Positions 4,067-58,884 of a stretch of 64,000 bases of DNA are shown here, piece after piece. Within the stretch, counting starts at the first letter, position 1. Each line of letters begins with the position of its first letter. This stretch comes from Crossaster papposus (Eukaryota > Echinodermata > Asteroidea > Velatida > Solasteridae), in the NCBI GenBank assembly GCA_037893245.1, contig JBAIAA010000866.1, positions 186,001-250,000 on the forward strand, read 5' to 3'. The translations under genes and the position numbers were made by a program. Under the pieces are notes generated by a model. That model made no database searches. It saw only the letters and a program-made list of their open reading frames with translations, and was not told the DNA's origin.

Positions 4067-4149
4067 TGTCAGGAGTGGGATTTGAACCCACGCCTACAGA
4101 GTAGACTACGACCTAAACGTAGCGCCTTAGACCGCTCGGCCATCCTGAG
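4067..4149 (-). tRNA. tRNA-Leu-like (TAG)
   Basis: Full-length copy with anticodon TAG (would read CUA). Base 1 is C, so the first acceptor pair is lost; the B box reads GGTTCAAATCC. The 3' half resembles the truncated class, which also has TAG, so the copy may be a recombinant with it or the class ancestor. Confidence 0.75.
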
Positions 4150-5008
4150 TTGCTCGTAAAATGTGCGAACTAATTGTGCGAAGTGTAAACAGAAAATTGA
4201 ATTTCGTGGCAAAATTTCCGAAATGCAAATAAAAAGTCAGGAGTGGGATTCGAACCCACGCCTACAGAGTAGACTACGACCTGAACGTAGCGCCTTAGAC
4301 CGCTCGCCCATCCTGACTCGCTTGTAGAATGTGCGAAGTGTAAACATAAAATTGAATTTTGAGGCAAAATTACCGAAATGCAAATCACAACATAACAAAA
4401 TGTCAGGAGTGGAATTCCAACCCACGCCTACAGAGTAGACTACGACCTGAACGTAGCGCCTTGGACCGCTCGGCCATCCTGACTGGCTTGTAGAATATGC
4501 GAAGTGTGAACAGAAAATTGAATTTTGAGGCAAAATTACCGAAATGCAAATCACAACATAAAAAAATGTCAGGAGTGGGATTCGAACCCACGCCTACAGA
4601 GTAGACTACGACCTGAACGTAGCGCCTTAGACAGCTCGGCCATCCTGACTCGCTTGTAAAATGTGCGAAGTGTAAACAGAAAATTGAATTTTGAGGCAAA
4701 ATTACCGAAATGCAAATCGCAACATAAAAAAATGTCAGGAGTGGGATTTGAACCCACGCCTACAGAGTACACTACGACCTAAACGTTAATTAAATTAAAT
4801 TTTGAGGCAAAATTACCGAAATGCAAATCATAACATAAAAAAATGTCAGGAGTGGGATTCGAACCCACGCCTACAGAGTAGACTACGACCTGAACTTAGC
4901 GCCTTAGACCGCTCGGCCATCCTGACTAGCTCGTAAAATATGCAAAGTGTGAACAGAAAATTGAATTTTGAGGCAAAATTACCGAAATGCAAATCACAAC
5001 ATAAAAAA

Positions 5009-5091
5009 TGTCAGGAGTGGGATTCGAACCCACGCCTACAGAGTAGACTACGACCTGAACGTAGCGCCTTAGACCGCTCGGCCATCCTGAC
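5009..5091 (-). tRNA. tRNA-Leu (CAG), exact consensus
   Basis: Body identical to the reference; T6 run. Confidence 0.93.
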
Positions 5092-5782
5092 TCGCTTCTA
5101 GAATGTGCGAAGTGTGAACAGAAAATTAAATTTTGAGGCACTATTACCGAAATGCAAATCACAACATAAAAAAATGTCAGGAGTGGGATTCGAACCCACG
5201 CCTACAGAGTAGACTACCACCTAAACGTTAATTAAATTAAATTTTGAGGCAACATTTCCGAAATGCAAATCACAACATAAAAAAATGTCAGGAGTGGGAT
5301 TCGAACCCACGCCTACAGAGTAGACTACCACCTGAACGTAGCGCCTTAGACCGCTCGGCCATCCTGACTCGCTTGTAGAATGTGCGAAGTGTAAACAGAA
5401 AATTAAATTTTGAGGCAAAATTACCGAAATGCAAATCATAACATAAAAAAATGTCAGGAGTGGGATTCGAACCCACGCCTACAGAGTAGACTACGACCTG
5501 AACTTAGCGCCTTAGACCGCTCGGCCATCCTGACTAGCTCGTAAAATATGCAAAGTGTAAACCGAAAATTGCATTTTGAGGCAACATTTCCGAAATGCAA
5601 ATCACAATAAAAAAAAATTCAAGAGTGGGATTCGAACCCACGCCTACAGAGTAGACTACGACCTGAACGTAGCGCCTTGGACCGCTCGGCCATCCTGACT
5701 CGCTTGTAGAATATGCGAAGTGTAAACAGAAAATTGAATTTGGAGGCAAAATTACCGAAATGCAAATCACAACATAAAAAAA

Positions 5783-5865
5783 TGTCAGGAGTGGGATTTA
5801 AACCCACGCCTACAGAGTAGACTACGACCTAAACGTAGCGCCTTAGACCGCTCGGCCATCCTGAG
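5783..5865 (-). tRNA. tRNA-Leu-like (TAG), damaged T loop
   Basis: Duplicate of 4067-4149 at 1716 bp with a further B-box change (GGTTTAAATCC) and the same C1 acceptor defect; likely a pseudogene. Confidence 0.68.
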
Positions 5866-6282
5866 TTGCTCGTAAAATGTGCGAACAAATTGTGCGAAGT
5901 GTAAACAGAAAATTGAATTTTGTGGCAAAATTTCCGAAATGCAAATAAAAAGTCAGGAGTGGGATTCGAACCCACGCCTACAGAGTAGACTACGACCTGA
6001 ACGTAGCGCCTTAGACCGCTCGCCCATCCTGACTCGCTTGTAGAATGTGCGAAGTGTAAACATAAAATTGAATTTTGAGGCAAAATTACCGAAATGCAAA
6101 TCACAACATAAAAAAATGTCAGGAGTGGAATTCGAACCCACGCCTACAGAGTAGACTACGACCTGAACGTAGCGCCTTGGACCGCTCGGCCATCCTGACT
6201 GGCTTGTAGAATATGCGAAGTGTGAACAGAAAATTGAATTTTGAGGCAAAATTACCGAAATGCAAATCACAACATAAAAAAA

Positions 6283-6365
6283 TGTCAGGAGTGGGATTCG
6301 AACCCACGCCTACAGAGTAGACTACGACCTGAACGTAGCGCCTTAGACCGCTCGGCCATCCTGAC
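6283..6365 (-). tRNA. tRNA-Leu (CAG), exact consensus
   Basis: Body identical to the reference; its 1716-bp-offset counterpart 4567 has T18, so the duplicates have diverged or been converted. Confidence 0.93.
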
Positions 6366-6904
6366 TCGCTTCTAGAATGTGCGAAGTGTAAACAGAAAAT
6401 TGAATTTTGAGGCAAAATTACCGAAATGCAAATCGCAACATAAAAAAATGTCAGGAGTGGGATTTGAACCTACGCCTACAGAGTACACTACAACCTAAAC
6501 GTTAATTAAATTAAATTTTGAGGCAAAACTACCGAAATGCAAATCATAACATAAAAAAATGTCAGGAGTGGGATTCGAACCCACGCCTACAGAGTAGACT
6601 ACGACCTGAACTTAGCGCCTTAGACCGCTCGGCCATCCTGACTAGCTCGTAAAATATGCAAAGTGTAAACAGAAAATTGCATTTTGAGGCAAAATTTCCG
6701 AAATGCAAATCACAATAAAAAAAAAATCAGGAGTGGGATTCGAACCCACGCCTACAGAGTAGACTACGACCTGAACGTAGCGCCTTAGACCGCTCGGCCA
6801 TCCTGAGTTGCTCGTAAAATGTGCGAACAAATTGTGCGAAGTGTAAACAGAAAATTGAATTTTGTGGCAAAATTTCCGAAATGCAAATAAAAATATAAAT
6901 AAAA

Positions 6905-6987
6905 TGTCAGGAGTGGGATTCGAACCCACGCCTACAGAGTAGACTACGACCTTAACGTAGCGCATTAGACCGCTCGGCCATCCTGAC
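6905..6987 (-). tRNA. tRNA-Leu (AAG), cleanest AAG copy
   Basis: Differs from the consensus body only at C34 to A and at G23 to T in the D stem. A box, B box and T-run are intact. Confidence 0.85.
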
Positions 6988-9900: not shown

Positions 9901-10070
9901 GGGATTCGAACCCACGCCTACAGAGTAGACTACGACCTGAACGTAGCGCCTTAGACCGCTCGGCCATCCTGAGTTGCTCGTAAAATGTGCGAACAAATTG
10001 TGCGAAGTGTAAACAGAAAATTGAATTTTGTGGCAAAATTTCCGAAATGCAAATAAAAATATAAATAAAA

Positions 10071-17497: not shown

Positions 17498-17580
17498 TGT
17501 CAGGAGTAGGATTCGAACCCACGCCTACAGAGCGGACTACGACCTCACCGTAGCGCCTTGGACCGCTCGGCCATCCTGAC
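17498..17580 (-). tRNA. tRNA-Leu-like (GAG), divergent
   Basis: Anticodon GAG with position 32 changed to G (plus strand cctcaccg). The B box is intact; one T-stem pair and the variable arm are changed (plus strand agcggac). Separate from the main GAG subfamily. Confidence 0.7.
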
Positions 17581-23998: not shown

Positions 23999-24060
23999 TA
24001 GTCTTGCAGCCATCGTCCATATTATGGATTCCGTGGGAAATGCGTGAACATTTAGTTTTG
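23999..24060 (+). repeat. left terminal inverted repeat
   Basis: Begins TAGTCTTGCAGCCAT and shares GTGRGAAATKCRTGAACATTT further in with the right end read in reverse complement. It contains about 13 extra bases (near 24019-24031) absent from the right end. Confidence 0.8.
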
Positions 24061-24099
24061 AACATTGAAACTTGATCTTTGGACTCTAATGAGTTGATC

Positions 24100-24785
24100 T
24101 AGATTTGGTGCCATTTTTTCGGACACCGTTAACGCCTATTTTTATGCAAATTAGTTATGACGTCATAAAACGTCATAAAATCGACTGTTTCAGTCATTAA
24201 AAGACATATTTTACCATTATCACACAAACAAAACATACTTTAAAGGCATTTGTAACATTAATGTTGTTGTTAAGATTTTATATTTTCTTATGATAACGCA
24301 TTTTTTTGTATGCATAAATTTACTTATTTTATGCAAATTAAGGATATTACATCAAATTAAACACCTCTGACGTGAAATAACATGTGGAATTGGCATGAAA
24401 CACATTTAAAACATCGTACTTGTTTATTTTTAATCTTGCTTAACATCTGATTATTAAATTGCATAATGTCCTTGTTTAAATGCAAATTAGGAATGACGGT
24501 GTGAAGTTAAATATTCAAAACATAAAGTGACATGTTTTGCAATTGGCAAACATAGAAATGCACTTCGAAAAATGTGAACTCTATTGTTCAACGGTAATTT
24601 TGTCTGAAGCTATGAGTGTAGAGTTTAATATGCATACATTGATTTGGAGATAGTTGTTTATGCAAATTAGGAAGGATGTTAAACAAGACATAATATATGT
24701 TGACTGTTACATAATGAAACATTTTGCAATTTGCATACAATGATTGTGTTTATTGGGAAGCAGCGTAATCATACATGTTACCTAC
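24100..24785. repeat. left subterminal repeats with octamer motifs
   Basis: ATGCAAATTA occurs at 24144-24153, 24331-24340, 24480-24489 and 24660-24669, each at the head of a loosely similar 150-190-bp AT-rich unit, with 'acatgttttgcaat' or 'acattttgcaat' phrases in the last two. A palindromic TGACGTCA lies at 24158-24165. 24107-24120 is the inverted counterpart of the right-arm phrase GAAAAAATGGCACC. No gene seen here. Confidence 0.65.
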
Positions 24786-25056
24786 TTTTTTATATATTTT
24801 TTTAGAACGATTCTCGGTCACCTGGGAAGGACATTAACGTGAAGGACGTGTAATACTGGGTTTTGTGGAATTTTTATTATTTTTCTGTGAGACTATTAGG
24901 TTTTTTTAAATTCTAATGGAGTGCTTTTGCAAGAAGGTATAGCACAGAGAAACCGGTTTATGCAGGCATACTTCAAGAAATGATCAGTATATTTTTTTTA
25001 TTTTTTTTTAATCAATTCTAGAGTTAGCTGTAGTGAATCAGAACTCATTCTATATG
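24786..25056. other. AT-rich stretch, nothing recognised
   Basis: Interior of the element; T-rich runs and no reading frame, RNA gene or repeat that I can support. Confidence 0.5.
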
Positions 25057-25640
25057 GGAAGGGGAGGGTGTTTATGGGAGTTTTCACAAGTCAGAACTTT
25101 TTCTCATCGTTTTCTTTATATTTTTTGGAGATGCTGAAGCAGTTCTGCTGCGTGAAGTATCATTGGATTTGAGGTGTGTGGCTGGTCTGCAGAGATAAGT
25201 CTGTATAATTTATGATGTGCTGGTATGCCAGCAGTGTGGTTGCGTAACTATCCTGCCCATGAGCGTAAATCTTAATTTAAGTTTTTTTTTAGTGATATAC
25301 GCTTCATGGGAGGTCAGTTCAGGCCACGTTTGGGAGATTGCAGTCTGTAGGAATGGGGGGGGGGGGGGGGGGGAGTGTTTCGTGTACAAGTTTTAAAAAA
25401 AAACCTCCGTACTTTTCGTTATTTTTTTGAGACGCGGAAAAGGTTCTGCTGACAAGTATCATATGGATTGTATTTGTGACTGGTCTGCAGAAATAAATCT
25501 GTAATTGTACGTTAACTAGTGGGTATGCTAGAAAGTGGTTGTTTAACTGGTCTCTCCAGAGCGTAATTCTTAACTCTTTTTTTCCTTTTTTTGTAAGACA
25601 CGCATCTGGGGGTCAGTTCTAGCCACATTATCTCTGCTAG
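25057..25640. repeat. diverged tandem duplication, period about 300 bp
   Basis: Two copies (about 25060-25330 and 25360-25632) share in order a TTTTT-GAGA-GC block, GGTTCTGCTG or AGTTCTGCTG, AAGTATCAT-GGAT, GACTGGTCTGCAGA, ATAAATCTGTA, GGTATGC, GAGCGTAA and GGTCAGTTC. Each is non-coding as far as I can see. The 90-residue minus-strand frame over the second copy has no counterpart in the first and is treated as chance. Confidence 0.65.
25355..25373 (+). repeat. poly-G tract, 19 bases
   Basis: Uninterrupted G19; the length is likely to vary and to be hard to sequence. Confidence 0.9.
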
Positions 25641-26043
25641 ATGACAAGTCTGTGGTTGGAGTTCGTGGACGGGAAAATACATCAAACGTCTGAAGGCCAA
25701 TTTGGTTAGACATTCCCTAAAAGCAGGAGTTTCAAACCCTGTCTCTGGTTTTTGCGACACGATGATTGGTTTGTGTATTGCCACAGTGGTCCCTTTGTTT
25801 TTAGTTCACACAGTGATTGATTATTACCGGTGATAATATGCCGTCCCCTCTTTTTTTCTCTTTTTTGGAAGGGGAGCAGGGCATATTTTCTGTGCTATAT
25901 CATGCACGTCATCAGTCACCATCTTATATAGTTCATTTTCCTTTCCTTGTTTTTATTTGTGTGTCGGTTTATATGACACGTGGCGAGGACAAATACCGGC
26001 TTTTTTTTGGGGGGGGGGGGTGTCTTGATTGATTTATTTTGTT
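25641..26043. other. interior of element, no gene supported
   Basis: Contains a T8-G12 tract (G12 at 26009-26020). The plus-strand frames of 60-80 residues here read through homopolymers and look like chance. Confidence 0.5.
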
Positions 26044-26539
26044 TTAGTCTTGAGATCCATTTCTTTGTTCATTGTTTTGTTCTTCCAATAGTCCCAATAG
26101 AATTTGCAGATTCTCCTCATCAAGATTTTGTTCCTCTTGGTTGGATTGTGGAGATGCTTTAGTACTAAGTTCATCTTTTATGTTTTTGTGCCGTTTGCAT
26201 GCCAGGATGGGTTGGGTATCAAATATCCTATTTAGATATTCGTTTTCGCTAATCAAGGGCCAGTGTTTAAGGATAGCCCGTTTGAGGGCTGGGTGCGCGA
26301 TATGTGGGTAGTATGGTAGGACGAACACCAGTGGGATATTTATTATTTGTTTTGTCACGCTTAGGGTCCGCGGGAGTCTTGCCCCTCTGAGAAAGGAGGG
26401 CTAGGTCTTCGTTTGTGTATCCGCGCTTTTGAAGTTTGTCTTTGAACAAGTTAACCCTCTCCTCAAAGTCTTTTAAATGGGTACATATAAGTTTGTATCT
26501 GGTCACTTCGCCCTTGATTAATCCGCCAAATATTGACAT
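26044..26539 (-). pseudogene. reverse-transcriptase-associated fragment, probably Penelope-like, frameshifted
   Basis: Two overlapping minus-strand frames (26267-26539, then 26044-26358) together read like the region after the reverse transcriptase core in Penelope-like retroelement proteins: a helical segment ending KRGYTNEDL, a proline/lysine linker, then FVLPYYPHIAHPALKRAIL, KHWPLI and a PILACKRHKNIKDEL segment. The frames differ by one position and join near 26310-26345, so the fragment is broken. No catalytic reverse transcriptase motif is present and no GIY-YIG endonuclease follows. Family assignment is from memory of the motif order. It may be a retroelement remnant captured by, or inserted in, the DNA element. 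Confidence 0.5.
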
Positions 26540-26570
26540 AGGGTGTGCTGAATCTCTAGCTAGGTACCAG

Positions 26571-27060
26571 AAAATGGCACCATGACTGAAATTTCATCTA
26601 CGGCTATAAGCTTTGTATTCCTGCATAGACTTCAAAATGTTCATGAATTGGGTTAGTATTTTACAGTCCAGCTGTAGCGTGCAAAGAGAATACATTGAAA
26701 ACCCTATATAAAATATAGCAATTTATGACGTCATACTTAATTTGCATAAAAGTACACTTATTAGTGCTCCGAAAAAATGGCACCTTGACTCAAATTTCAT
26801 CTACGGCTATAAGCTTTGTATTCCTGCAAAGAAAACAACATGTTCACGAATAGGGTTAGTATTTTACAGTCAAGATGTAGCGTGCAAAGAGAATACATTG
26901 AAAACCCTATGTAAAATATAGCGATTTATGACGTCATACTTAATTTGCATAAAAGTACACTTTTTTTTCCCCGAAAAAATGGCACCAAGACTCAAATTGT
27001 ATCTATGGCTATAAGCTTTGTATTCCTGCAAAGAAAACAAAATGTTCATGAATTTCTCAC
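26571..27060. repeat. right subterminal tandem repeat, period about 202 bp
   Basis: Three copies, the last partial, start at the phrase ATGGCACC at 26574, 26777 and 26979. Each continues with CTATAAGCTTTGTATTCCTGC and a GTTCAYGAAT phrase; copies 1 and 2 go on to TGACGTCA (26726-26733, 26929-26936) and TAATTTGCAT (26738-26747, 26941-26950). Orientation is inverted relative to the left arm. These could be transposase-binding repeats; that is inference. Confidence 0.8.
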
Positions 27061-27084
27061 GGGATGACAATGGCTGCAAGACTA
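27035..27084 (-). repeat. right terminal inverted repeat
   Basis: Reverse complement matches the left end over the outer 15 bases exactly and then with a few differences and the 13-base gap. Confidence 0.8.
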
Positions 27085-33147: not shown

Positions 33148-34329
33148 TCGCTTGTAGAATGTGCGAAGTGTGAACAGAAAATTAAATTTTGAGGCAAAAT
33201 TACCGAAATGCAAATCATAACATAAAAAAATGTCAGGAGTGGGATTCGAACCCACGCCTACAGAGTAGACTACGACCTGAACGTAGCGCCTTGGACCGCT
33301 CGGCCATCCTGACTCGCTTGTAAAATGTGCGAAGTGTAAACAGAAAATTGAATTTTGAGGCAAAATTACCGAAATGCAAATCACAACATAAAAAAATGTC
33401 AGGAGTGGGATTCGAACCCACGCCTACAGAGTAGACTACGACCTGAACGTAGCGCCTTGGACCGCTCGGCCATCCTGACTCGCTTGTAGAATATGCGAAG
33501 TGTAAACAGAAAATTTAATTTTGAGGCAAAATTACCGAAATGCAAATCACAACATAAACAAATGTCAGGAGTGGGATTTGAACGCACGCCTACAGAGTAC
33601 ACTACGACCTAAACGTTAATTAAATTAAATTTTGAGGCAACATTTCCGAAATGCAAATCACAACATAAAAAAATGTCAGGAGTGGGATTCGAACCCACGC
33701 CTACAGAGTAGACTACGACCTGAACGTATCGCCTTAGACCGCTCGGCCATCCTGACTCGCTTGTAGAATGTGCGAAGTGTAAACAGAAAATTAAATTTTG
33801 AGGCAAAATTACCGAAATGCAAATCATAACATAAAAAAATGTCAGGAGTGGGATTCGAACCCACGCCTACAGAGTAGACTGCGACCTGAACGTAGCGCCT
33901 TGGACCGCTCGGCCATCCTGAGTTGCTCGTAAAATGTGCGAAAATATTGTGCGAAGTGTAAACAGAAAATTAAATTTTGAGGCAAAATTACCGAAATGCA
34001 AATAAAAATGTCAGGAGTGGGATTAGAACCCACGCCTACAGAGTAGACTACGACCTGAACGTAGCGCCTTAGACCGCTCGGCCATTCTGACTCGCTGGTA
34101 GAATGTGCGAAGTGTAAACATAAAATTGAATTTTGAGGCAAATTACCGAAATGCAAAACAATGTCAGGAGTGGGATTCGAACCCACGCCTACATAGTAGA
34201 CTACGACCTGAACGTAGCGCCTTACACCGCTCGGCCATCCTGACTAGCTTGTAGAATGTGCGAAGTGTAAACAGAAAATTAAATTTTTTGAGGCAAAATT
34301 ACCGAAATGCAAATCATAACATAAAAAAA

Positions 34330-34412
34330 TGTCAGGAGTGGGATTCGAACCCACGCCTACAGAGTAGACTACGACCTGAACGTAGCGCCTTAGACCGCTC
34401 GGCCATCCTGAC
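34330..34412 (-). tRNA. tRNA-Leu (CAG), exact consensus
   Basis: Body identical to the reference; paralogue of 36924-37006 (+2594). Confidence 0.93.
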
Positions 34413-34495
34413 TCGCTTGTAGAATGTGCGAAGTGTAAACAGAAAATTGAATTTTGAGGCAAAATTACCGAAATGCAAATCACAACATAAAAAAA

Positions 34496-34578
34496 TGTCA
34501 GGAGTGGGATTCGAACCCACGCCTACAGAGTAGACTACGACCTGAACGTAGCGCCTTAGACCGCTCGGCCATCCTGAC
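34496..34578 (-). tRNA. tRNA-Leu (CAG), exact consensus
   Basis: Body identical to the reference; lies directly downstream, on the minus strand, of the intact GAG copy 34662. Confidence 0.93.
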
Positions 34579-34661
34579 TCGCTTGTAGAATGTGCGAAGT
34601 GTAAACAGAAAATTAAATTTTGAGGCAAAATTACCGAAATGCAAATCATAACATAAAAAAA

Positions 34662-34744
34662 TGTCAGGAGTGGGATTCGAACCCACGCCTACAGAGTAGA
34701 CTACGACCTCAACGTAGCGCCTTAGACCGCTCGGCCATCCTGAC
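34662..34744 (-). tRNA. tRNA-Leu (GAG), otherwise exactly consensus
   Basis: The whole body equals the consensus except C34 to G. Acceptor, anticodon, variable and T stems all pair; A box, B box and a T7 run are intact. With 37256-37338 it is the best candidate for a functional GAG leucine tRNA. Probably a recombinant between a GAG copy and a consensus copy, because nearby GAG copies carry other changes. Confidence 0.88.
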
Positions 34745-35658
34745 TCGCTTGTAGAATATGCGAAGTGTAAACAGAAAATTGAATTTTGAGGCAAAATTAC
34801 CGAAATGCAAATCACAACATAAAAAAGTGTCAGGAGTGGGATTTGAACCCACGCCTACAGAGTAGACTACGACCTGAACGTAGCGCCTTAGACCGCTCGG
34901 CCATTCTGACTCGCTGGTAGAATGTGCGAAGTGTAAACATAAAATTGAATTTTGAGGCAAATTACCGAAATGCAAAACAATGTCAGGAGTGGGATTCGAA
35001 CCCACGCCTACAGAGTAGACTACGACCTGAACGTAGCGCCTTACACCGCTCGGCCATCCTGACTAGCTTGTAGAATGTGCGAAGTGTAAACAGAAAATTA
35101 AATTTTGAGGCAAAATTACCGAAATGCAAATCATAACATAAAAAAAATTCAGGAGTGGGATTCGAACCCACGCCTACAGAGTAGACTACGACCTGAACGT
35201 AGCGCCTTAGACCTCTCGGCCATCCTGACTCGCTTGTAGAATGTGCGAAATGTAAACAGAAAATTGAATTTTGAGGCAAAATTACCGAAATGCAAATCAC
35301 AACATGAAAAAATGTCAGGAGTGAGATTCGAACCCACGCCTACAGAGTAGACTACGACCTGAACCTAGCGCCTTAGACCGCTCGGCCATCCTGACTCGCT
35401 TGTAGAATGTGCGAAGTGTAAACAGAAAATTAAATTTTGAGGCAAAATTACCGAAATGCAAATCATAACATAAAAAAATGTCAGGAGTGGGATTCGAACC
35501 CACGCCTACAGAGTAGACTACGACCTGAACGTAGCGCCTTAGACCGCTCGGCCATCCTGAGTTGCTCGTAAAATGTGCCAAAAAATTGTGCGAAGTGTAA
35601 ACAGAAAATTGAATTTTGTGGCAAAATTTCCGAAATGCAAATAAAAATATAAATAAAA

Positions 35659-35741
35659 TGTCAGGAGTGGGATTCGAACCCACGCCTACAGAGTAGACTA
35701 CGACCTTAACGTAGCGCATTATACCGCTCGGCCATCCTGAC
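35659..35741 (-). tRNA. tRNA-Leu (AAG), second subtype
   Basis: A34, T23 and D-loop A. Paralogue of 38253-38335 (+2594) and, through it, of 39540-39622. Confidence 0.82.
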
Positions 35742-36267
35742 TCGCTTGTAGAATGTGCGAAGTGTAAACATAAAATTGAATTTTGAGGCAAAATTACCGA
35801 AATGCAAATCACAACATAAAAAAATGTCAGGAGTGGGATTTGAACCCACGCCTACAGAGTAGACTACGACCTGAACGTAGCGCCTTAGACCGCTCGCCCA
35901 TCCTGACTCGCTTGTAGAATGTGCGAAGTGTAAACATAAAATTGAATTTTGAGGCAAAATTACCGAAATGCAAATCACAACATAAAAAAATGTCAGGAGT
36001 GGGATTTGAACCCACGCCTACAGAGTAGACTACGACCTAAACGTTAATTAAATACAATTTTGAGGCAACATTTCCGAAATGCAAATCACAACATAAAAAA
36101 TTGTCAGGAGTGGGATTCGAACCCACGCCTACAGAGTAGACTACGACCTGAACGTAGCGCCTTAGACCGCTCGGCCATCCTCACTCGCTTGTAGAATGTG
36201 CGAAGTGTGAACAGAAAATTAAATTTTGAGGCAAAATTACCGAAATGCAAATCATAACATAAAAAAA

Positions 36268-36350
36268 TGTCAGGAGTGGGATTCGAACCCACGCCTACAG
36301 AGTAGACTACGACCTGAACGTAGCGCCTTAGACCGCTCGGCCATCCTGAC
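36268..36350 (-). tRNA. tRNA-Leu (CAG), exact consensus
   Basis: Body identical to the reference; T7 run. Confidence 0.93.
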
Positions 36351-36923
36351 TCGCTTGTAGAATGTGTGAAGTGTAAACAGAAAATTAAATTTTGAGGCAA
36401 AATTACCGAAATGCAAATCATAACATAAAAAAATGTCAGGAGTGGGATTCGAACCCACGCCTACAGAGTAGACTGCGACCTGAACGTAGCGCCTTGGACC
36501 GCTCGGCCATCCTGAGTTGCTCGTAAAATGTGCGAAAATATTGTGCGAAGTGTAAACAGAAAATTAAATTTTGAGGCAAAATTACCGAAATGCAAATAAA
36601 AATGTCAGGAGTGGGATTAGAACCCACGCCTACAGAGTAGACTACGACCTGAACGTAGCGCCTTAGACCGCTCGGCCATTCTGACTCGCTGGTAGAATGT
36701 GCGAAGTGTAAACATAAAATTGAATTTTGAGGCAAATTACCGAAATGCAAAACAATGTCAGGAGTGGGATTCGAACCCACGCCTACATAGTAGACTACGA
36801 CCTGAACGTAGCGCCTTACACCGCTCGGCCATCCTGACTAGCTTGTAGAATGTGCGAAGTGTAAACAGAAAATTAAATTTTTTGAGGCAAAATTACCGAA
36901 ATGCAAATCATAACATAAAAAAA

Positions 36924-37006
36924 TGTCAGGAGTGGGATTCGAACCCACGCCTACAGAGTAGACTACGACCTGAACGTAGCGCCTTAGACCGCTCGGCCAT
37001 CCTGAC
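36924..37006 (-). tRNA. tRNA-Leu (CAG), exact consensus
   Basis: Body identical to the reference; homologue of 34330. Confidence 0.93.
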
Positions 37007-37089
37007 TCGCTTGTAGAATGTGCGAAGTGTAAACAGAAAATTGAATTTTGAGGCAAAATTACCGAAATGCAAATCACAACATAAAAAAA

Positions 37090-37172
37090 TGTCAGGAGTG
37101 GGATTCGAACCCACGCCTACAGAGTAGACTACGACCTGAACGTAGCGCCTTAGACCGCTCGGCCATCCTGAC
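37090..37172 (-). tRNA. tRNA-Leu (CAG), exact consensus
   Basis: Body identical to the reference; homologue of 34496, next to the GAG copy 37256. Confidence 0.93.
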
Positions 37173-37255
37173 TCGCTTGTAGAATGTGCGAAGTGTAAAC
37201 AGAAAATTAAATTTTGAGGCAAAATTACCGAAATGCAAATCATAACATAAAAAAA

Positions 37256-37338
37256 TGTCAGGAGTGGGATTCGAACCCACGCCTACAGAGTAGACTACGA
37301 CCTCAACGTAGCGCCTTAGACCGCTCGGCCATCCTGAC
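37256..37338 (-). tRNA. tRNA-Leu (GAG), otherwise exactly consensus
   Basis: Duplicate of 34662-34744 at 2594 bp; only position 34 differs from consensus. Confidence 0.88.
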
Positions 37339-38252
37339 TCGCTTGTAGAATATGCGAAGTGTAAACAGAAAATTGAATTTTGAGGCAAAATTACCGAAAT
37401 GCAAATCACAACATAAAAAAGTGTCAGGAGTGGGATTTGAACCCACGCCTACAGAGTAGACTACGACCTGAACGTAGCGCCTTAGACCGCTCGGCCATTC
37501 TGACTCGCTGGTAGAATGTGCGAAGTGTAAACATAAAATTGAATTTTGAGGCAAATTACCGAAATGCAAAACAATGTCAGGAGTGGGATTCGAACCCACG
37601 CCTACAGAGTAGACTACGACCTGAACGTAGCGCCTTACACCGCTCGGCCATCCTGACTAGCTTGTAGAATGTGCGAAGTGTAAACAGAAAATTAAATTTT
37701 GAGGCAAAATTACCGAAATGCAAATCATAACATAAAAAAAATTCAGGAGTGGGATTCGAACCCACGCCTACAGAGTAGACTACGACCTGAACGTAGCGCC
37801 TTAGACCTCTCGGCCATCCTGACTCGCTTGTAGAATGTGCGAAATGTAAACAGAAAATTGAATTTTGAGGCAAAATTACCGAAATGCAAATCACAACATG
37901 AAAAAATGTCAGGAGTGAGATTCGAACCCACGCCTACAGAGTAGACTACGACCTGAACCTAGCGCCTTAGACCGCTCGGCCATCCTGACTCGCTTGTAGA
38001 ATGTGCGAAGTGTAAACAGAAAATTAAATTTTGAGGCAAAATTACCGAAATGCAAATCATAACATAAAAAAATGTCAGGAGTGGGATTCGAACCCACGCC
38101 TACAGAGTAGACTACGACCTGAACGTAGCGCCTTAGACCGCTCGGCCATCCTGAGTTGCTCGTAAAATGTGCCAAAAAATTGTGCGAAGTGTAAACAGAA
38201 AATTGAATTTTGTGGCAAAATTTCCGAAATGCAAATAAAAATATAAATAAAA

Positions 38253-38335
38253 TGTCAGGAGTGGGATTCGAACCCACGCCTACAGAGTAGACTACGACCT
38301 TAACGTAGCGCATTATACCGCTCGGCCATCCTGAC
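38253..38335 (-). tRNA. tRNA-Leu (AAG), second subtype
   Basis: A34, T23 and D-loop A. Its 1287-bp-offset twin is 39540-39622. Confidence 0.82.
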
Positions 38336-39539
38336 TCGCTTGTAGAATGTGCGAAGTGTAAACATAAAATTGAATTTTGAGGCAAAATTACCGAAATGCA
38401 AATCACAACATAAAAAAATGTCAGGAGTGGGATTTGAACCCACGCCTACAGAGTAGACTACGACCTGAACGTAGCGCCTTAGACCGCTCGCCCATCCTGA
38501 CTCGCTTGTAGAATGTGCGAAGTGTAAACATAAAATTGAATTTTGAGGCAAAATTACCGAAATGCAAATCACAACATAAAAAAATGTCAGGAGTGGGATT
38601 TGAACCCACGCCTACAGAGTAGACTACGACCTAAACGTTAATTAAATACAATTTTGAGGCAACATTTCCGAAATGCAAATCACAACATAAAAAATTGTCA
38701 GGAGTGGGATTCGAACCCACGCCTACAGAGTAGACTACGACCTGAACGTAGCGCCTTAGACCGCTCGGCCATCCTCACTCGCTTGTAGAATGTGCGAAGT
38801 GTGAACAGAAAATTAAATTTTGAGGCAAAATTACCGAAATGCAAATCATAACATAAAAAAATGTCAGGAGTGGGATTCGAACCCACGCCTACAGAGTAGA
38901 CTACGACCTGAACGTAGCGCCTTGGACCGCTCGGCCATCCTGACTCGCTTGTAAAATGTGCGAAGTGTAAACAGAAAATTGAATTTTGAGGCAAAATTAC
39001 CGAAATGCAAATCACAACATAAAAAAGTGTCAGGAGTGGGATTTGAACCCACGCCTACAGAGTAGACTACGACCTGAACGTAGCGCCTTAGACCGCTCGG
39101 CCATTCTGACTCGCTTGTAAAATGTGCGAAGTGTAAACAGAAAATTGAATTTTGAGGCAAAATTACCGAAATGCAAATCACAACATGAAAAAATGTCAGG
39201 AGTGAGATTCGAACCCACGCCTACAGAGTAGACTACGACCTGAACCTAGCGCCTTAGACCGCTCGGCCATCCTGACTCGCTTGTAGAATGTGCGAAGTGT
39301 AAACAGAAAATTAAATTTTGAGGCAAAATTACCGAAATGCAAATCATAACATAAAAAAATGTCAGGAGTGGGATTCGAACCCACGCCTACAGAGTAGACT
39401 ACGACCTGAACGTAGCGCCTTAGACCGCTCGGCCATCCTGAGTTGCTCGTAAAATGTGCCAAAAAATTGTGCGAAGTGTAAACAGAAAATTGAATTTTGT
39501 GGCAAAATTTCCGAAATGCAAATAAAAATATAAATAAAA

Positions 39540-50456: not shown

Positions 50457-50539
50457 TCGCTTGTAGAATGTGCGAAGTGTAAACAGAAAATTGAATTTTG
50501 AGGCAAAATTACCGAAATGCAAATCACAACATAAAAAAA

Positions 50540-50622
50540 TGTCATGAGTGGGATTCGAATCCACGCCTACAGACTGGACTACGACCTCAACGTAGCGCCT
50601 TGGACCGCTCGGCCATCCTGAC
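50540..50622 (-). tRNA. tRNA-Leu-like (GAG), acceptor mismatch
   Basis: Third higher-order copy of 44119. Extra changes break one acceptor pair (plus strand gtcatgag) and the variable arm (plus strand agactggac). Confidence 0.66.
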
Positions 50623-51356
50623 TCGCTTGTAGAATATGCGAAGTGTAAACAGAAAATTGAATTTTGAGGCAAAATTACCGAAATGCAAATCACAACATAA
50701 AAAAATGTCAGGAGTGGGATTTGAACCCACGCCTACAGAGTAGACTACGACCTGAACGTAGCGCCTTAGACCGCTCGGCCATTCTGACTCGCTGGTAGAA
50801 TGTGCGAAGTGTAAACATGAAATTGAATTTTGAGGCAAATTACCGAAATGCAAAACAATGTCAGGAGTGGGATTCGAACCCACGCCTACAGAGTAGACTA
50901 CGACCTGAACGTAGCGCCTTACACCGCTCGGCCATCCTGACTAGCTTGTAGAATGTGCGAAGTGTAAACAGAAAATTAAATTTTGAGGCAAAATTACCGA
51001 AACGCAAATCATAACATAAAAAAATTTCAGGAGTGGGATTCGAACCCACGCCTACAGAGTAGACTACGACCTGAACGTAGCGCCTTAGACCTCTCGGCCA
51101 TCCTGACTCGCTTGTAGAATGTGCGAAATGTAAACAGAAAATTGAATTTTGAGGCAAAATTACCGAAATGCAAATCACAACATGAAAAAATGTCAGGAGT
51201 GAGATTCGAACCCACGCCTACAGAGTAGACTACGACCTGAACCTAGCGCCTTAGACCGCTCGGCCATCCTGACTCGCTTGTAGAATGTGCGAAGTGTAAA
51301 CAGAAAATTAAATTTTGAGGCAAAATTACCGAAATGCAAATCATAACATAAAAAAA

Positions 51357-51439
51357 TGTCAGGAGTGGGATTCGAACCCACGCCTACAGAGTAGACTACG
51401 ACCTGAACGTAGCGCCTTAGACCGCTCGGCCATCCTGAC
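51357..51439 (-). tRNA. tRNA-Leu (CAG), exact consensus
   Basis: Body identical to the reference; third higher-order copy of 44936. Confidence 0.93.
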
Positions 51440-51522
51440 TCGCTTGTAAAATGTGCGAAGTGTAAACAGAAAATTGAATTTTGAGGCAAAATTACCGAAA
51501 TGCAAATCACAACATAAAAAAA

Positions 51523-51605
51523 TGTCAGGAGTGGGATTTGAATCCACGCCTACAGAGTGGACTACGACCTCAACGTAGCGCCTTGGACCGCTCGGCCATC
51601 CTGAC
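51523..51605 (-). tRNA. tRNA-Leu-like (GAG), two B-box changes
   Basis: Homologue of 48998 at 2525 bp, with the same paired B-box changes. Confidence 0.68.
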
Positions 51606-51979
51606 TCGCTTGTAGAATATGCGAAGTGTAAACAGAAAATTGAATTTTGAGGCAAAATTACCGAAATGCAAATCACAACATAAAAAAATGTCAGGAGTGG
51701 GATTTGAACCCACGCCTACAGAGTACACTACGACCTAAACGTTAATTAAATTAAATTTTGAGGCAACATTTCCGAAATGCAAATCACAACATAAAAAAAT
51801 TTCAGGAGTGGGATTCGAACCCACGCCTACAGAGTAGACTACGACCTGAACGTAGCGCCTTAGACCGCTCGGCCATCCTGAGTTGCTCGTAAAATGTGCG
51901 AAAAAATTGTGCGAAGTGTAAACAGAAAATTGAATTTTGTGGCAAAATTTCCGAAATGCAAATAAAAATATAAATAAAA

Positions 51980-52062
51980 TGTCAGGAGTGGGATTCGAAC
52001 CCACGCCTACAGAGTAGACTACGACCTTAACGTAGCGCATTATACCGCTCGGCCATCCTGAC
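51980..52062 (-). tRNA. tRNA-Leu (AAG), second subtype
   Basis: A34, T23 and D-loop A. AAG copies are absent from 39623 to 51979 and reappear here; paralogue of 58345-58427 (+6365). Confidence 0.82.
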
Positions 52063-52436
52063 TCGCTTGTAGAATGTGCGAAGTGTAAACATAAAATTGA
52101 ATTTTGAGGCAAAATTACCGAAATGCAAATCACAACATAAAAAAATGTCAGGAGTGGGATTCGAACCCACGCCTACAGAGTAGACTACGACCTAAACGTT
52201 AATTAAATTAAATTTTGAGGCAACATTTCCGAAATGCAAATCACAACATAAAAAAATGTCAGGAGTGGGATTCGAACCCACGCCTACAGAGTAGACTACG
52301 ACCTGAACGTAGCGCCTTAGACCGCTCGGCCATCCTGAGTTGCTCGTAAAATGTGCGAAAAAATTGTGCGAAGTGTAAACAGAAAATTGAATTTTGTGGC
52401 AAAATTTCCAAAATGCAAATAAAAATATAAATAAAA

Positions 52437-52519
52437 TGTCAGGAGTGGGATTCGAACCCACGCCTACAGAGTAGACTACGACCTTGACGTAGCGCATTAT
52501 ACCGCTCGGACATCCTGAC
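52437..52519 (-). tRNA. tRNA-Leu-like (AAG) with C33, probably inactive
   Basis: Anticodon AAG, but position 33, almost universally U in tRNAs, is C (plus strand ccttgacg). G10 to T also breaks the A box (plus strand ctcggacatc). Together these suggest a pseudogene. The same lesions occur at 53379 and 58802. Confidence 0.7.
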
Positions 52520-52879
52520 TCGCTTGTAGAATGTGCGAAGTGTAAACATAAAATTGAATTTTGAGGCAAAATTACCGAAATGCAAATCACAACATAAAAA
52601 AATGTCAGGAGTGGGATTCGAACCCACGACTACAGAGTAGACTACGACCTGAACGTAGCGCCTTAGACCGCTCGCCCATCCTGACTCGCTTGTAGAATGT
52701 GCGAAGTGTAAACATAAAATTGAATTTTGAGGCAAAATTACCGAAATGCAAATCACAACATAAAACAATGTCAGGAGTGGGATTTGAACCCACGCCTACA
52801 GAGTAGACTACGACCTAAACGTTAATTAAATAAAATTTTGAGGCAACATTTCCGAAATGCAAATCACAACATAAAAAAA

Positions 52880-52962
52880 TGTCAGGAGTGGGATTCGAAC
52901 CCACGCCTACAGAGTAGACTACGACCTGAACGTAGCGCCTTAGACCGCTCGGCCATCCTGAC
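52880..52962 (-). tRNA. tRNA-Leu (CAG), exact consensus
   Basis: Body identical to the reference; homologues 53822 (+942) and 59245 (+6365). Confidence 0.93.
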
Positions 52963-53378
52963 TCGCTTGTAGAATGTGCGAAGTGTGAACAGAAAATTAA
53001 ATTTTGAGGCAAAATTACCGAAATGCAAATCATAACATAAAAAAATGTCAGGAGTGGGATTCGAACCCACGCCTACAGAGTAGACTACGACCTGAACGTA
53101 GCGCCTTAGACAGCTCGGCCATCCTGACTCGCTTGTAAAATGTGCGAAGTGTAAACAGAAAATTGAATTTTGAGGCAAAATTACCGAAATGCAAATCACA
53201 ACATAAAAAAATGTCAGGAGTGGGATTCGAACCCACGCCTACAGAGTAGACTACGACCTGAACGTAGCGCCTTGGACCGCTCGGCCATCCTGACTCGCTT
53301 GTAGAATATGCGAAGTGTAAACAGAAAATTGAATTTTGTGGCAAAATTTCCAAAATGCAAATAAAAATATAAATAAAA

Positions 53379-53461
53379 TGTCAGGAGTGGGATTCGAACC
53401 CACGCCTACAGAGTAGACTACGACCTTGACGTAGCGCATTATACCGCTCGGACATCCTGAC
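53379..53461 (-). tRNA. tRNA-Leu-like (AAG) with C33, probably inactive
   Basis: Same C33 and A-box lesion as 52437-52519, of which it is a 942-bp-offset duplicate. Confidence 0.7.
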
Positions 53462-53821
53462 TCGCTTGTAGAATGTGCGAAGTGTAAACATAAAATTGAA
53501 TTTTGAGGCAAAATTACCGAAATGCAAATCACAACATAAAAAAATGTCAGGAGTGGGATTCGAACCCACGCCTACAGAGTAGACTACGACCTGAACGTAG
53601 CGCCTTAGACCGCTCGCCCATCCTGACTCGCTTGTAGAATGTGCGAAGTGTAAACATAAAATTGAATTTTGAGGCAAAATTACCGAAATGCAAATCACAA
53701 CATAAAACAATGTCAGGAGTGGGATTTGAACCCACGCCTACAGAGTAGACTACGACCTAAACGTTAATTAAATAAAATTTTGAGGCAACATTTCCGAAAT
53801 GCAAATCACAACATAAAAAAA

Positions 53822-53904
53822 TGTCAGGAGTGGGATTCGAACCCACGCCTACAGAGTAGACTACGACCTGAACGTAGCGCCTTAGACCGCTCGGCCATCC
53901 TGAC
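53822..53904 (-). tRNA. tRNA-Leu (CAG), exact consensus
   Basis: Body identical to the reference; second copy of the 942-bp block. Confidence 0.93.
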
Positions 53905-55538
53905 TCGCTTGTAGAATGTGCGAAGTGTGAACAGAAAATTAAATTTTGAGGCAAAATTACCGAAATGCAAATCATAACATAAAAAAATGTCAGGAGTGGG
54001 ATTCGAACCCACGCCTACAGAGTAGACTACGACCTGAACGTAGCGCCTTAGACAGCTCGGCCATCCTGACTCGCTTGTAAAATGTGCGAAGTGTAAACAG
54101 AAAATTGAATTTTGAGGCAAAATTACCGAAATGCAAATCACAACATAAAAAAATGTCAGGAGTGGGATTCGAACCCACGCCTACAGAGTAGACTACGACC
54201 TGAACGTAGCGCCTTGGACCGCTCGGCCATCCTGACTCGCTTGTAGAATATGCGAAGTGTAAACAGAAAATTTAATTTTGAGGCAAAATTACCGAAATGC
54301 AAATCACAACATAAAAAAATGTCAGGAGTGGGATTTGAACGCACGCCTACATAGTACACTACGACCTAAACGTTAATTAAATTAAATTTTGAGGCAACAT
54401 TTCCGAAATGCAAATCACAACATAAAAAAATGTCAGCAGTGGGATTCGAACCCACGCCTACAGAGTAGACTACGACCTGAACGTATCGCCTTAGACCGCT
54501 CGGCCATCCTGACTCGCTTGTAGAATGTGCGAAGTGTAAACAGAAAATTTAATTTTGAGGCAAAATTACCGAAATGCAAATCATAACATAAAAAAATGTC
54601 AGGAGTGGGATTCGAACCCACGCCTACAGAGTAGACTGCGACCTGAACGTAGCGCCTTAGACCGCTCGGCCATCCTCACTCGCTTGTAGAATGTGCGAAG
54701 TGTGAACAGAAAATTAAATTTTGAGGCAAAATTACCGAAATGCAAATCATAACATAAAAAAATGTCAGGAGTGGGATTCGAACCCACGCCTACAGAGTAG
54801 ACTACGACCTGAACGTAGCGCCTTAGACAGCTCGGCCATCCTGACTCGCTTGTAAAATGTGCGAAGTGTAAACAGAAAATTGAATTTTGAGGCAAAATTA
54901 CCGAAATGCAAATCACAACATAAAAAAATGTCAGGAGTGGGATTCGAACCCACGCCTACAGAGTAGACTACGACCTAAACGTTAATTAAATTAAATTTTG
55001 AGGCAACATTTCCGAAATGCAAATCACAACATAAAAAAATGTCAGGAGTGGGATTCGAACCCACGCCTACAGAGTAGACTACGACCTGAACGTATCGCCT
55101 TAGACCGCTCGGCCATCCTGACTCGCTTGTAGAATGTGCGAAGTGTAAACAGAAAATTAAATTTTGAGGCAAAATTACCGAAATGCAAATCATAACATAA
55201 AAAAATGTCAGGAGTGGGATTCGAACCCACGCCTACAGAGTAGACTACGACCTGAACGTATCGCCTTAGACCGCTCGGCCATCCTGACTCGCTTGTAGAA
55301 TGTGCGAAGTGTAAACAGAAAATGGAATTTTGAGGCAAAATAACCGAAATGCAAAACAATGTCAGGAGTGGGATTCGAACCCACGCCTACAGAGTAGACT
55401 GCGACCTGAACGTAGCGCCTTGGACCGCTCGGCCATCCTGAGTTGCTCGTAAAATGTGCGAAAATATTGTGCGAAGTGTAAACAGAAAATTAAATTTTGA
55501 GGCAAAATTACCGAAATGCAAATCATAACATAAAAAAA

Positions 55539-55621
55539 TGTCAGGAGTGGGATTCGAACCCACGCCTACAGAGTAGACTACGACCTGAACGTAGCGCCTT
55601 AGACCGCTCGGCCATCCTGAC
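55539..55621 (-). tRNA. tRNA-Leu (CAG), exact consensus
   Basis: Body identical to the reference; homologue of 62900 (+7361). Confidence 0.93.
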
Positions 55622-55870
55622 TCGCTTGTAGAATGTGCGAAGTGTAAACAGAAAATTGAATTTTGAGGCAAAATTACCGAAATGCAAATCACAACATAAA
55701 AAAATGTCAGGAGTGGGATTCGAACCCACGCCTACAGAGTAGACTACGACCTGAACGTAGCGCCTTCGACCGCTCGGCCATCCTGACTCGCTTGTAGAAT
55801 GTGCGAAGTGTAAACAGAAAATTAAATTTTGAGGCAAAATTACCGAAATGCAAATCATAACATAAAAAAA

Positions 55871-55953
55871 TGTCAGGAGTGGGATTCGAACCCACGCCTA
55901 CAGAGTAGACTACGACCTGAACGTAGCGCCTTAGACCGCTCGGCCATCCTGAC
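55871..55953 (-). tRNA. tRNA-Leu (CAG), exact consensus
   Basis: Body identical to the reference; homologue of 63232. Confidence 0.93.
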
Positions 55954-56036
55954 TCGCTTGTAGAATGTGCGAAGTGTAAACAGAAAATTGAATTTTGAGG
56001 CAAAATTACCGAAATGCAAATCACAACATAAAAAAA

Positions 56037-56119
56037 TGTCAGGAGTGGGATTCGAATCCACGCCTACAGAGTGGACTACGACCTCAACGTAGCGCCTTGG
56101 ACCGCTCGGCCATCCTGAC
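56037..56119 (-). tRNA. tRNA-Leu-like (GAG)
   Basis: Main GAG subfamily with G53 to A. Followed at higher coordinates by a truncated copy and then the TAG copy at 56314. Confidence 0.72.
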
Positions 56120-56313
56120 TCGCTTGTAGAATATGCGAAGTGTAAACAGAAAATTGAATTTTGAGGCAAAATTACCGAAATGCAAATCACAACATAAAAA
56201 AATGTCAGGAGTGGGATTTGAACCCACGCCTACAGAGTACACTACGACCTAAACGTTAATTAAATTAAATTTTGAGGCAACATTTCCGAAATGCAAATCA
56301 CAACATAAAAAAA

Positions 56314-56396
56314 TGTCAGGAGTGGGATTCGAACCCACGCCTACAGAGTAGACTACCACCTAAACGTAGCGCCTTAGACCGCTCGGCCATCCTGAC
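56314..56396 (-). tRNA. tRNA-Leu (TAG), best TAG copy
   Basis: Anticodon TAG with consensus acceptor stem, D arm, A box, B box and T7 run. The one defect is a G31-G39 mismatch at the base of the anticodon loop (plus strand ccacctaaacg). Confidence 0.8.
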
Positions 56397-56645
56397 TCGC
56401 TTGTAGAATGTGCGAAGTGTAGACAGAAAATTTAATTTTGAGGTAAAATTACCGAAATGCAAATCATAACATAAAAAAATGTCAGGAGTGGGATTCGAAC
56501 CCACGCCTACAGAGTAGACTACGACCTGAACTTAGCGCCTTAGACCGCTCGGCCATCCTGACTAGCTCGTAAAATATGCAAAGTGTAAACAGAAAATTGC
56601 ATTTTGAGGCAAAATTTCCGAAATGCAAATCACAATACAAAAAAT

Positions 56646-56971
56646 ATTCAGGAGTGGGATTCGAACCCACGCCTACAGAGTAGACTACGACCAGGGGCCA
56701 ATTTCACGGCGCTGCTAAGCACTAAAATTTGCTGAGCATGAAAATGCTTCCTTCGCAAAAACAAGGTTACAGACCAAATTTTCACGAGATCTTTACTGTT
56801 TTTGATTGATAATCAACTTGTTTTTTGCTTAGCATGAAAAACACGTATAATTTTGGCTGGTAAACTGTTTTTAATGAGCAAGACATTTTGGGCTAAGCAA
56901 TTTTTTTTGCTGAGCAGCTCCATGAAATTGGCCCCTGAACGTGGCGCCTTGGACCGCTCGGCCATCCTGAC
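56646..56971 (-). pseudogene. tRNA-Leu split inside its anticodon by a foldback element
   Basis: The 3' part is 56646-56692 and the 5' part 56936-56971; without the 243-bp insert the copy has the standard length. The break falls between anticodon positions 35 and 36 (CA/G). The 5' part also has a changed base next to the anticodon stem (plus strand gtggcgcc). Confidence 0.9.
56693..56935. mobile_element. foldback (MITE-like) element, 243 bp
   Basis: Inverted ends start AGGGGCCAATTTCA and continue with GCTGCT-AGCA on both arms; further in, the two halves keep pairing imperfectly (GGTTACAGACCAAATTTT on the left arm against ATTTTGGCTGGTAAAC on the right). The last T of the right inverted repeat (56936) is also the host tRNA base. 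No target duplication is visible. No coding capacity. Similar GGGGCCAATTTCAT foldback sequences are, as I remember, common in marine invertebrate genomes. Confidence 0.85.
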
Positions 56972-57721
56972 TCGCTTGTAGAATATGCGAAGTGTAAACA
57001 GAAAATTGCATTTTGAGGCAAAATTTCCGAAATGCAAATCACAATAAAAAAAAATTCAGGAGTGGGATTCGAACCCACGCCTACAGAGTAGACTACGAAC
57101 TGAACGTAGCGCCTTAGACCGCTCGGCCATCCTGAGTTGCTCGTAAAATGTGCGAAAAAATTGTGCGAAGTGTAAACAGAAAATTGAATTTTGAGGCAAA
57201 ATTTCCGAATTGCAAATCACAACATAACAAAATGTAAGGAGTGGGATTCGAACCCACGCCTACAGAGTGGACTACGACCTGAACGTAGCGCCTTGGACCG
57301 CTCGGCCATCCTGACTCGCTTGCAGAATATGCGAAGTGTAAACAGAAAATGGAATTTTGAGGCAAAATAACCGAAATGCAAAACAATGTCAGGAGTGGGA
57401 TTCGAACCCACGCCTACAGAGTAGACTGCGACCTGAACGTAGCGCCTTGGACCGCTCGGCCATCCTGAGTTGCTCGTAAAATGTGCGAAAATATTGTGCG
57501 AAGTGTAAACAAAAAATTAAATTTTGAGGCAAAATTACCGAAATGCAAATAAAAATGTCAGGAGTGGGATTCGAACCCACGCCTACAGAGTAGACTACGA
57601 CCTGAACCTAGCGCCTTAGACCGCTCGGCCATCCTGACTCGCTTGTAGAATGTGCGAAGTGTAAACAGAAAATTTAATTTTGAGGCAAAATTACCGAAAT
57701 GCAAATCATAACATAAAAAAA

Positions 57722-57804
57722 TGTCAGGAGTGGGATTCGAACCCACGCCTACAGAGTAGACTACGACCTGAACGTAGCGCCTTAGACCGCTCGGCCATCC
57801 TGAC
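57722..57804 (-). tRNA. tRNA-Leu (CAG), exact consensus
   Basis: Body identical to the reference; T7 run. Confidence 0.93.
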
Positions 57805-57887
57805 TCGCTTGTAAAATGTGCGAAGTGTAAACAGAAAATTGAATTTTGAGGCAAAATTACCGAAATGCAAATCACAACATAAAAAAA

Positions 57888-57970
57888 TGTCAGGAGTGGG
57901 ATTTGAATCCACGCCTACAGAGTGGACTACGACCTCAACGTAGCGCCTTGGACCGCTCGGCCATCCTGAC
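57888..57970 (-). tRNA. tRNA-Leu-like (GAG), two B-box changes
   Basis: Homologue of 51523-51605 at 6365 bp. Confidence 0.68.
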
Positions 57971-58344
57971 TCGCTTGTAGAATATGCGAAGTGTAAACAG
58001 AAAATTGAATTTTGAGGCAAAATTACCGAAATGCAAATCACAACATAAAAAAATGTCAGGAGTGGGATTTGAACCCACGCCTACAGAGTACACTACGACC
58101 TAAACGTTAATTAAATTAAATTTTGAGGCAACATTTCCGGAATGCAAATCACAACATAAAAAAATTTCAGGAGTGGGATTCGAACCCACGCCTACAGAGT
58201 AGACTACGACCTGAACGTATCGCCTTAGACCGCTCGGCCATCCTGAGTTGCTCGTAAAATGTGCGAAAAAATTGTGCGAAGTGTAAACAGAAAATTGAAT
58301 TTTGTGGCAAAATTTCCGAAATGCAAATAAAAATATAAATAAAA

Positions 58345-58427
58345 TGTCAGGAGTGGGATTCGAACCCACGCCTACAGAGTAGACTACGACCTTAACGTAG
58401 CGCATTATACCGCTCGGCCATCCTGAC
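58345..58427 (-). tRNA. tRNA-Leu (AAG), second subtype
   Basis: A34, T23 and D-loop A; U33 is normal. Paralogue of 51980-52062. Confidence 0.82.
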
Positions 58428-58801
58428 TCGCTTGTAGAATGTGCGAAGTGTAAACATAAAATTGAATTTTGAGGCAAAATTACCGAAATGCAAATCACAA
58501 CATAAAAAAATGTCAGGAGTGGGATTCGAACCCACGCCTACAGAGTAGACTACGACCTAAACGTTAATTAAATTAAATTTTGAGGCAACATTTCCGAAAT
58601 GCAAATCACAACATAAAAAAATGTCAGGAGTGGGATTCGAACCCACGCCTACAGAGTAGACTACGACCTGAACGTAGCGCCTTAGACCGCTCGGCCATCC
58701 TGAGTTGCTCGTAAAATGTGCGAAAAAATTGTGCGAAGTGTAAACAGAAAATTGAATTTTGTGGCAAAATTTCCAAAATGCAAATAAAAATATAAATAAA
58801 A

Positions 58802-58884
58802 TGTCAGGAGTGGGATTCGAACCCACGCCTACAGAGTAGACTACGACCTTGACGTAGCGCATTATACCGCTCGGACATCCTGAC
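58802..58884 (-). tRNA. tRNA-Leu-like (AAG) with C33, probably inactive
   Basis: Same C33 and A-box lesion as 52437-52519, at an offset of 6365 bp. Confidence 0.7.

Follow-up and report, generated by a model that had tools for sequence, protein, structure and literature searches.

Changes of anticodon within one amino-acid family, known as isoacceptor shifts, occur above random expectation in primates, Drosophila, nematodes, yeasts and Enterobacteriaceae, with 39 of 44 located at the first anticodon base, according to the available text of PMC3923123. Recent remolding of tRNA genes is thought to have taken place mostly in pseudogenes, as the accessible part of PMC4981973 puts it. Base-34 isoacceptor shifts, clustered tRNA genes in animals and a human tRNA tandem repeat are already known. 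Here we describe a 64,000-nucleotide stretch (the window) of the starfish Crossaster papposus (assembly GCA_037893245.1, contig JBAIAA010000866.1, positions 186,001 to 250,000), which is almost entirely occupied by a tandem array of leucine tRNA (tRNA-Leu) genes with four anticodons. We consider it likely that this is a redundant array of RNA polymerase III (Pol III) tRNA-Leu(CAG) genes, grown by unequal exchange and block amplification and drifting nearly neutrally, whose rare anticodons represent a handful of base-34 substitutions multiplied by copying.

ARAGORN found 321 tRNA-Leu genes on the minus strand of the window, and an independent blastn projection likewise recovered 321 full-length copies, each 83 nt long and gap-free. 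The copies run from 97 to 63922 and all tRNA copies in the window are arranged head to tail on a single strand, as in a tandem tRNA gene array, with both window edges falling inside the array. A first-pass annotation of this sequence had rightly recognized the array and its 321 full-length copies, but it placed the array at 4067-58884, short of the copies that carry it past both window ends, and omitted 63 partial 3' copies, 61 of them half-genes with a TAG anticodon. All 321 ARAGORN calls are for leucine, with the cloverleaf, long variable arm and anticodon of a nuclear tRNA-Leu of the CUN family; the tRNA body presumably resembles human tRNA-Leu-CAG. Copy-to-copy spacing is most commonly 166 bp (171/320) and next most commonly 277 bp (50/320), the latter including an additional 111-bp half-gene unit. 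A self-comparison limited to at least 97% identity gave 50 matches of at least 800 bp, of which the 25 longest span 1.5-4.7 kb. Rfam model RF00005 matched 39 of 42 copies above cut-off in 50500-59000 and 26 of 26 in 33900-38400, with 56.8 bits for exact-consensus CAG copies, 57.8 for two GAG copies and 47.7 for each of five AAG copies. A tRNA-derived short interspersed nuclear element, which would appear as dispersed retroposed copies, was rejected for the window, where every copy lies head to tail on one strand. An exact-pattern search for relatives of the array gave no match in viral contigs or prokaryote genome contigs, collections without animal genomes, and a literature search of titles and abstract beginnings gave no paper on this tRNA-Leu array among the matches listed.

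Base 34 (alignment column 35 of the blastn projection) is C in 281 copies, A in 21, G in 16 and T in 3, and every one of the 321 has A at base 35 and G at base 36. ARAGORN and the projection both return these anticodon counts (CAG 281, AAG 21, GAG 16, TAG 3), which the first-pass annotation had given correctly, along with the observation that the four anticodons together formally read every CUN codon. A substitution of base 34 that keeps the amino-acid family and the tRNA body, as here, is an isoacceptor anticodon shift. The single uniform body assumed by the annotation gives way to 100 distinct 83-nt haplotypes (CAG 85, AAG 7, GAG 5, TAG 3), and the anticodon variants co-occur with linked changes elsewhere in the tRNA. 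Neither is the presence of all four bases in one column special, as it is seen in 7 of 83 columns, six of them among the 22 C columns. The D-stem mismatch G24T is present in all 21 AAG copies and in no others and, judged from the sequence, the AAG copies are therefore of one origin. All 21 also have a single 3' flank type, which is found in 4 CAG copies and 1 GAG copy as well. The first AAG copy is at 278..360 (minus strand, as for all copies given here) and the rest run from 1509 to the last, at 58802..58884. This last copy and those at 52437-52519 and 53379-53461 additionally carry G10T and have lost U33, with C33 in its place, and they are exactly the three copies among the 42 without an Rfam match.

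The GAG copies look like the products of about one origin. T47C is found in 14 of the 16 and in 2 CAG copies, while G63A, which breaks the pair 53-61, is found in 13 and in 1 CAG copy. Two GAG copies, at 34662..34744 and 37256..37338, differ from the consensus only at base 34; their blocks repeat 2594 bp apart, and the former shares the highest score (57.8 bits) of the 26 copies in its scanned stretch. The first GAG copy, at 17498..17580, combines GAG-linked changes with the AAG-type 3' flank and is probably a recombinant. Full-length TAG arose about twice. The TAG copies at 4067..4149 and 5783..5865 belong to copied blocks, with 416-bp surroundings that are 98.8% identical and lie 1716 bp apart. 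The third, at 56314..56396, has surroundings 99.0% identical to the closest other places, and because those places have CAG we regard it as a separate event. The annotation had cautioned that independent events would be few, which is borne out. It had also held that a tree with one origin per anticodon would tell against selection, and on the sequence side this is largely what was found, AAG and GAG having arisen about once each and full-length TAG about twice.

A class of truncated genes carries TAG as well. The 63 partial 3' copies in the window comprise 61 half-genes truncated at the 5' end and 2 halves split off by insertions. The half-genes (for example 3459..3512) consist of bases 30-83 only, have lost the A box, and share one junction and the same upstream bases; all 61 read TAG, compared with 3 full-length genes. 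We considered gene conversion from half-genes as a proven source of full-length TAG and dropped it. The half-gene adjoining 56314 has C46G and G67A and lacks C40G, which is present in the CAG copies at the matching places, and G67A also occurs in a CAG copy (at 2616) of the same block type as the TAG copy at 4067. The changes linked to TAG do not prove conversion, because CAG copies of the same blocks share them, and T34 in the full-length genes may have come either from half-genes by conversion or from fresh mutation.

Trees were built on 320 units, of which 176 were unique, with the copy at 63840 left out as its 5' flank runs off the window. By parsimony, base 34 changed 4 times on the whole-unit tree, 7 times when the anticodon loop was left out of tree building and 15 times on a tree of flanks only. 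Mean changes per tRNA column depend on the base, with 3.05 for C, 1.73 for G, 1.07 for A and 1.00 for T, and column 35 has 4. The variation at base 34 follows from its being a C, which is the base that changes most in this gene, and the A and G at 35 and 36 belong to classes that change less; this difference suffices to account for the pattern. We propose that the array would have grown by unequal exchange and block amplification, a process to which the repeated blocks of at least 97% identity point, and that its copies drift nearly neutrally while amplification re-spreads whatever mutation a block carries. C34A would have occurred once, on a body with the D-stem mismatch, and C34G once, while C34T would have arisen about twice among full-length genes and one further time in the ancestor of the 5'-truncated pseudogene class. 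The variant anticodons would then add little or nothing to decoding.

The condition of the gene bodies is in keeping with such drift. Changes per column are similar in tRNA and spacer, at 1.78 and 1.96 on the whole-unit tree and 1.84 and 1.99 on the tree without the loop. Among the 45 different stem substitutions, 33 disrupt a pair and 12 keep it, close to the 11.0 pair-keeping changes expected from the spacer spectrum (P 0.38), and pair-breaking changes are found in up to 41 copies. Far from every copy being intact, only 85 of 321 are free of defects at 20 stem pairs and 13 conserved positions: 82 of 281 CAG, 3 of 16 GAG (17498, 34662 and 37256), none of 21 AAG and none of 3 TAG. By haplotype the defect-free share is 14/85 for CAG and 2/15 for the others, no clear difference; the comparison by copy (82/281 against 3/40, Fisher P 0.003) was set aside because array copies are not independent. 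Both promoter boxes, scored with A- and B-box motifs, appear intact in 215 of 321 copies (193/281 CAG, 18/21 AAG, 3/16 GAG and 1/3 TAG), and a run of at least four T lies within 40 nt downstream of all 321. From their structure, promoter motifs and T-runs, the 82 intact CAG copies probably make leucine tRNA. In 58 copies (4067-4149, for example) the first acceptor pair is disrupted, with C at base 1 in 41/321, A at base 72 in 30/321 and both in 14.

Several observations weigh against few origins and near-neutral drift. The 15 changes at base 34 on the flank-only tree make independent hits possible, although we read this figure as inflated if flanks and genes recombine, the tree having no model of recombination. 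The same tree gives 3.01 changes per tRNA column and 1.86 per spacer column, an excess that we likewise read as recombination. CAG copies in the blocks concerned also carry G67A and C40G, the changes linked to full-length TAG. Among the five regions compared, the anticodon loop changes least on average, at 1.29 changes per column (others 1.64 to 2.33), and by hand arithmetic all changes would fall at base 34 about 1 time in 80 if the nine anticodon substitutions were equally likely. Pair-keeping stem changes are slightly in excess when set against a uniform spectrum (8.7 expected, P 0.049) or the spectrum of non-stem tRNA columns (8.4 expected, P 0.035). Diversity is lower in tRNA (0.041) than in spacer (0.083), despite similarly frequent invariant columns, and A-box columns show 1.17 changes per column against 1.82 in the rest; B-box columns, conversely, show more (2.27). 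Two GAG copies are otherwise perfect, and 18 of the 21 AAG copies match both promoter-box motifs. Some constraint on the gene body is possible, yet broken copies are tolerated in the array.

A somewhat unlikely alternative is purifying selection against anticodons that break tRNA identity. Most changes at 35 or 36 would then place leucine at wrong codons and be removed, and changes at 34, which stay among the CUN codons, would be tolerated. Eukaryotic LeuRS presumably relies little on the anticodon. The constancy of 35 and 36 in 321 of 321 copies fits this reading, as does the low rate of change of the loop, within which the chance of both bases staying unchanged is 0.048 with events evenly placed and 0.056 with events weighted by base. 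So too does the excess of isoacceptor shifts over random expectation in several clades, 39/44 of them at the first anticodon base (available text of PMC3923123). That chance becomes 0.086 when estimated from the remaining A and G columns in the tRNA and 0.036 from those of the spacer (8/20 x 1/11, hand arithmetic), and overall lies at roughly 0.04-0.12. Invariant columns are about as frequent in the spacer (26/84) as in the tRNA (28/83), and adjacent columns are both unchanged in 10/83 spacer and 8/82 tRNA pairs. Columns without change make up 4/9 of the D-loop, 4/7 of the T-loop, 4/14 of the variable arm, 11/40 of the stems and 2/7 of the anticodon loop, so 35 and 36 appear no more conserved than the D-loop positions with which the annotation had proposed to compare them. 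CAG occurs just once more in the gene, at columns 3-5 of the acceptor stem, where it is preceded by T and followed by G as in the anticodon and behaves in the same way: its C3 is C in 312 copies, G in 6, A in 2 and T in 1, and its A4 and G5 are invariant, although it is an imperfect control since its bases are paired. Half-genes without an A box also retain A35 and G36, though just 6 of their 54 columns vary, and selection on stem pairing is not clear. Weak constraint on 35-36 is possible and the pattern is a hint at most. Of the annotation's interpretation, the CUN coverage and the small number of events hold, whereas its inference of selection from unchanged 35-36 is unsupported.

A second alternative, which we think unlikely, holds that transcription-linked damage to cytosines of the coding strand makes C in a TpC context a mutational hotspot. 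Base 34 is such a cytosine, followed by A35 and G36. C>G is found at 8 of 9 TpC columns and 5 of 13 C columns in other contexts within the tRNA (P 0.031), and at 13 of 22 C columns in the tRNA compared with 2 of 15 in the spacer (P 0.007), while G>C is found at only 3 of 26 tRNA G columns and the spacer shows no effect of TpC on C>G (1/6 against 1/9). However, these TpC tests are post hoc and uncorrected, draw on few events and take the consensus as the ancestor, and the number of alternative bases per column differs weakly (P 0.054). A bias confined to one strand is also doubtful because GpA columns, which are TpC on the opposite strand, change more as well, at 3.75 changes per column against 1.36 for other G columns, with only four GpA columns. 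The concentration of C>G in tRNA TpC columns may nevertheless be worth recording as possible transcription-linked cytosine damage. More speculatively, and in our view with a low probability, the array could naturally document germline mutation in DNA transcribed by Pol III, in which TpC cytosines including C34 would be hit preferentially, C>G among the changes. Wobble diversity would then stem in the first place from mutation bias, and a small number of intact copies (such as GAG at 34662 and at 37256) could turn into newly expressed isoacceptors.

Very improbable is an adaptive isoacceptor set, with all four wobble bases kept so that one locus serves every CUN codon. All four anticodons are present, three GAG copies are defect-free, both promoter boxes persist in 18 of the 21 AAG copies, and the available text of PMC8007984 states that eukaryotic ADAT converts A34 of tRNA-Leu(AAG) to inosine. 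The same text treats tRNA-Leu(GAG) as a rare exception in eukaryotes, naming Saccharomyces and Candida glabrata. We rejected this set as the main explanation, as no AAG (0/21) or TAG (0/3) copy is defect-free, although a single mismatch may leave a tRNA functional, and TAG is mainly the allele of the half-genes (61 against 3 full-length). Least credible is an assembly or sequencing artefact. Assembling tandem arrays such as this one is difficult, but the variants turn up on several haplotypes and in different blocks, and two insertions act as landmarks.

These insertions presumably resemble those of marine invertebrates. The larger, of 3.1 kb at 23999..27084, lies within a tRNA copy and is DNA-transposon-like, with 19-nt terminal inverted repeats that are 95% complementary and with GTA, as read from the sequence, repeated at both flanks. 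Near one end, at 26571-27053, it contains 203-bp tandem repeats. A Pfam search at E 0.1 gave no match for 3 of the 4 open reading frames of at least 80 aa that overlap it. The smaller, of 0.24 kb at 56693..56936 with ends read by eye, is a short inverted-repeat insertion resembling a miniature inverted-repeat transposable element and splits a tRNA copy at the anticodon.

If the array is indeed a drifting, amplified set of tRNA-Leu(CAG) genes, it illustrates how tandem amplification can make a few mutations resemble a designed anticodon set. With hundreds of near-identical Pol III genes, and with spacers and promoterless half-genes as internal controls, it could serve as a test bed for telling mutation bias apart from selection in tRNA genes. 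Its likeness to the described isoacceptor shifts and tRNA remolding (PMC3923123 and PMC4981973, in their available text) lies in base-34 changes within one amino-acid family among redundant tRNA genes; here, however, the array multiplies the variants, so counts overstate events. The clustered tRNA genes and pseudogenes of zebrafish and stickleback (available part of PMC2888827) are similar in their large copy numbers and clusters, and the zebrafish pairs are nearly all parallel. In contrast, neighboring pairs in zebrafish and Nematostella are described in that part as mostly heterogeneous, whereas the Crossaster array has one isoacceptor body, short units, repeated blocks and a half-gene class. 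Tandem tRNA genes are also shared with the Entamoeba tandem repeats (mentioned in the same source) and with the tRNA clusters of Arabidopsis. The human tRNA tandem repeat at 1q23.3 likewise consists of tandem tRNA genes, in units that are 98% identical, but according to the available text of PMC4041453 its unit is 7.3 kb long, carries several tRNA genes and is present in 9-43 units per allele.

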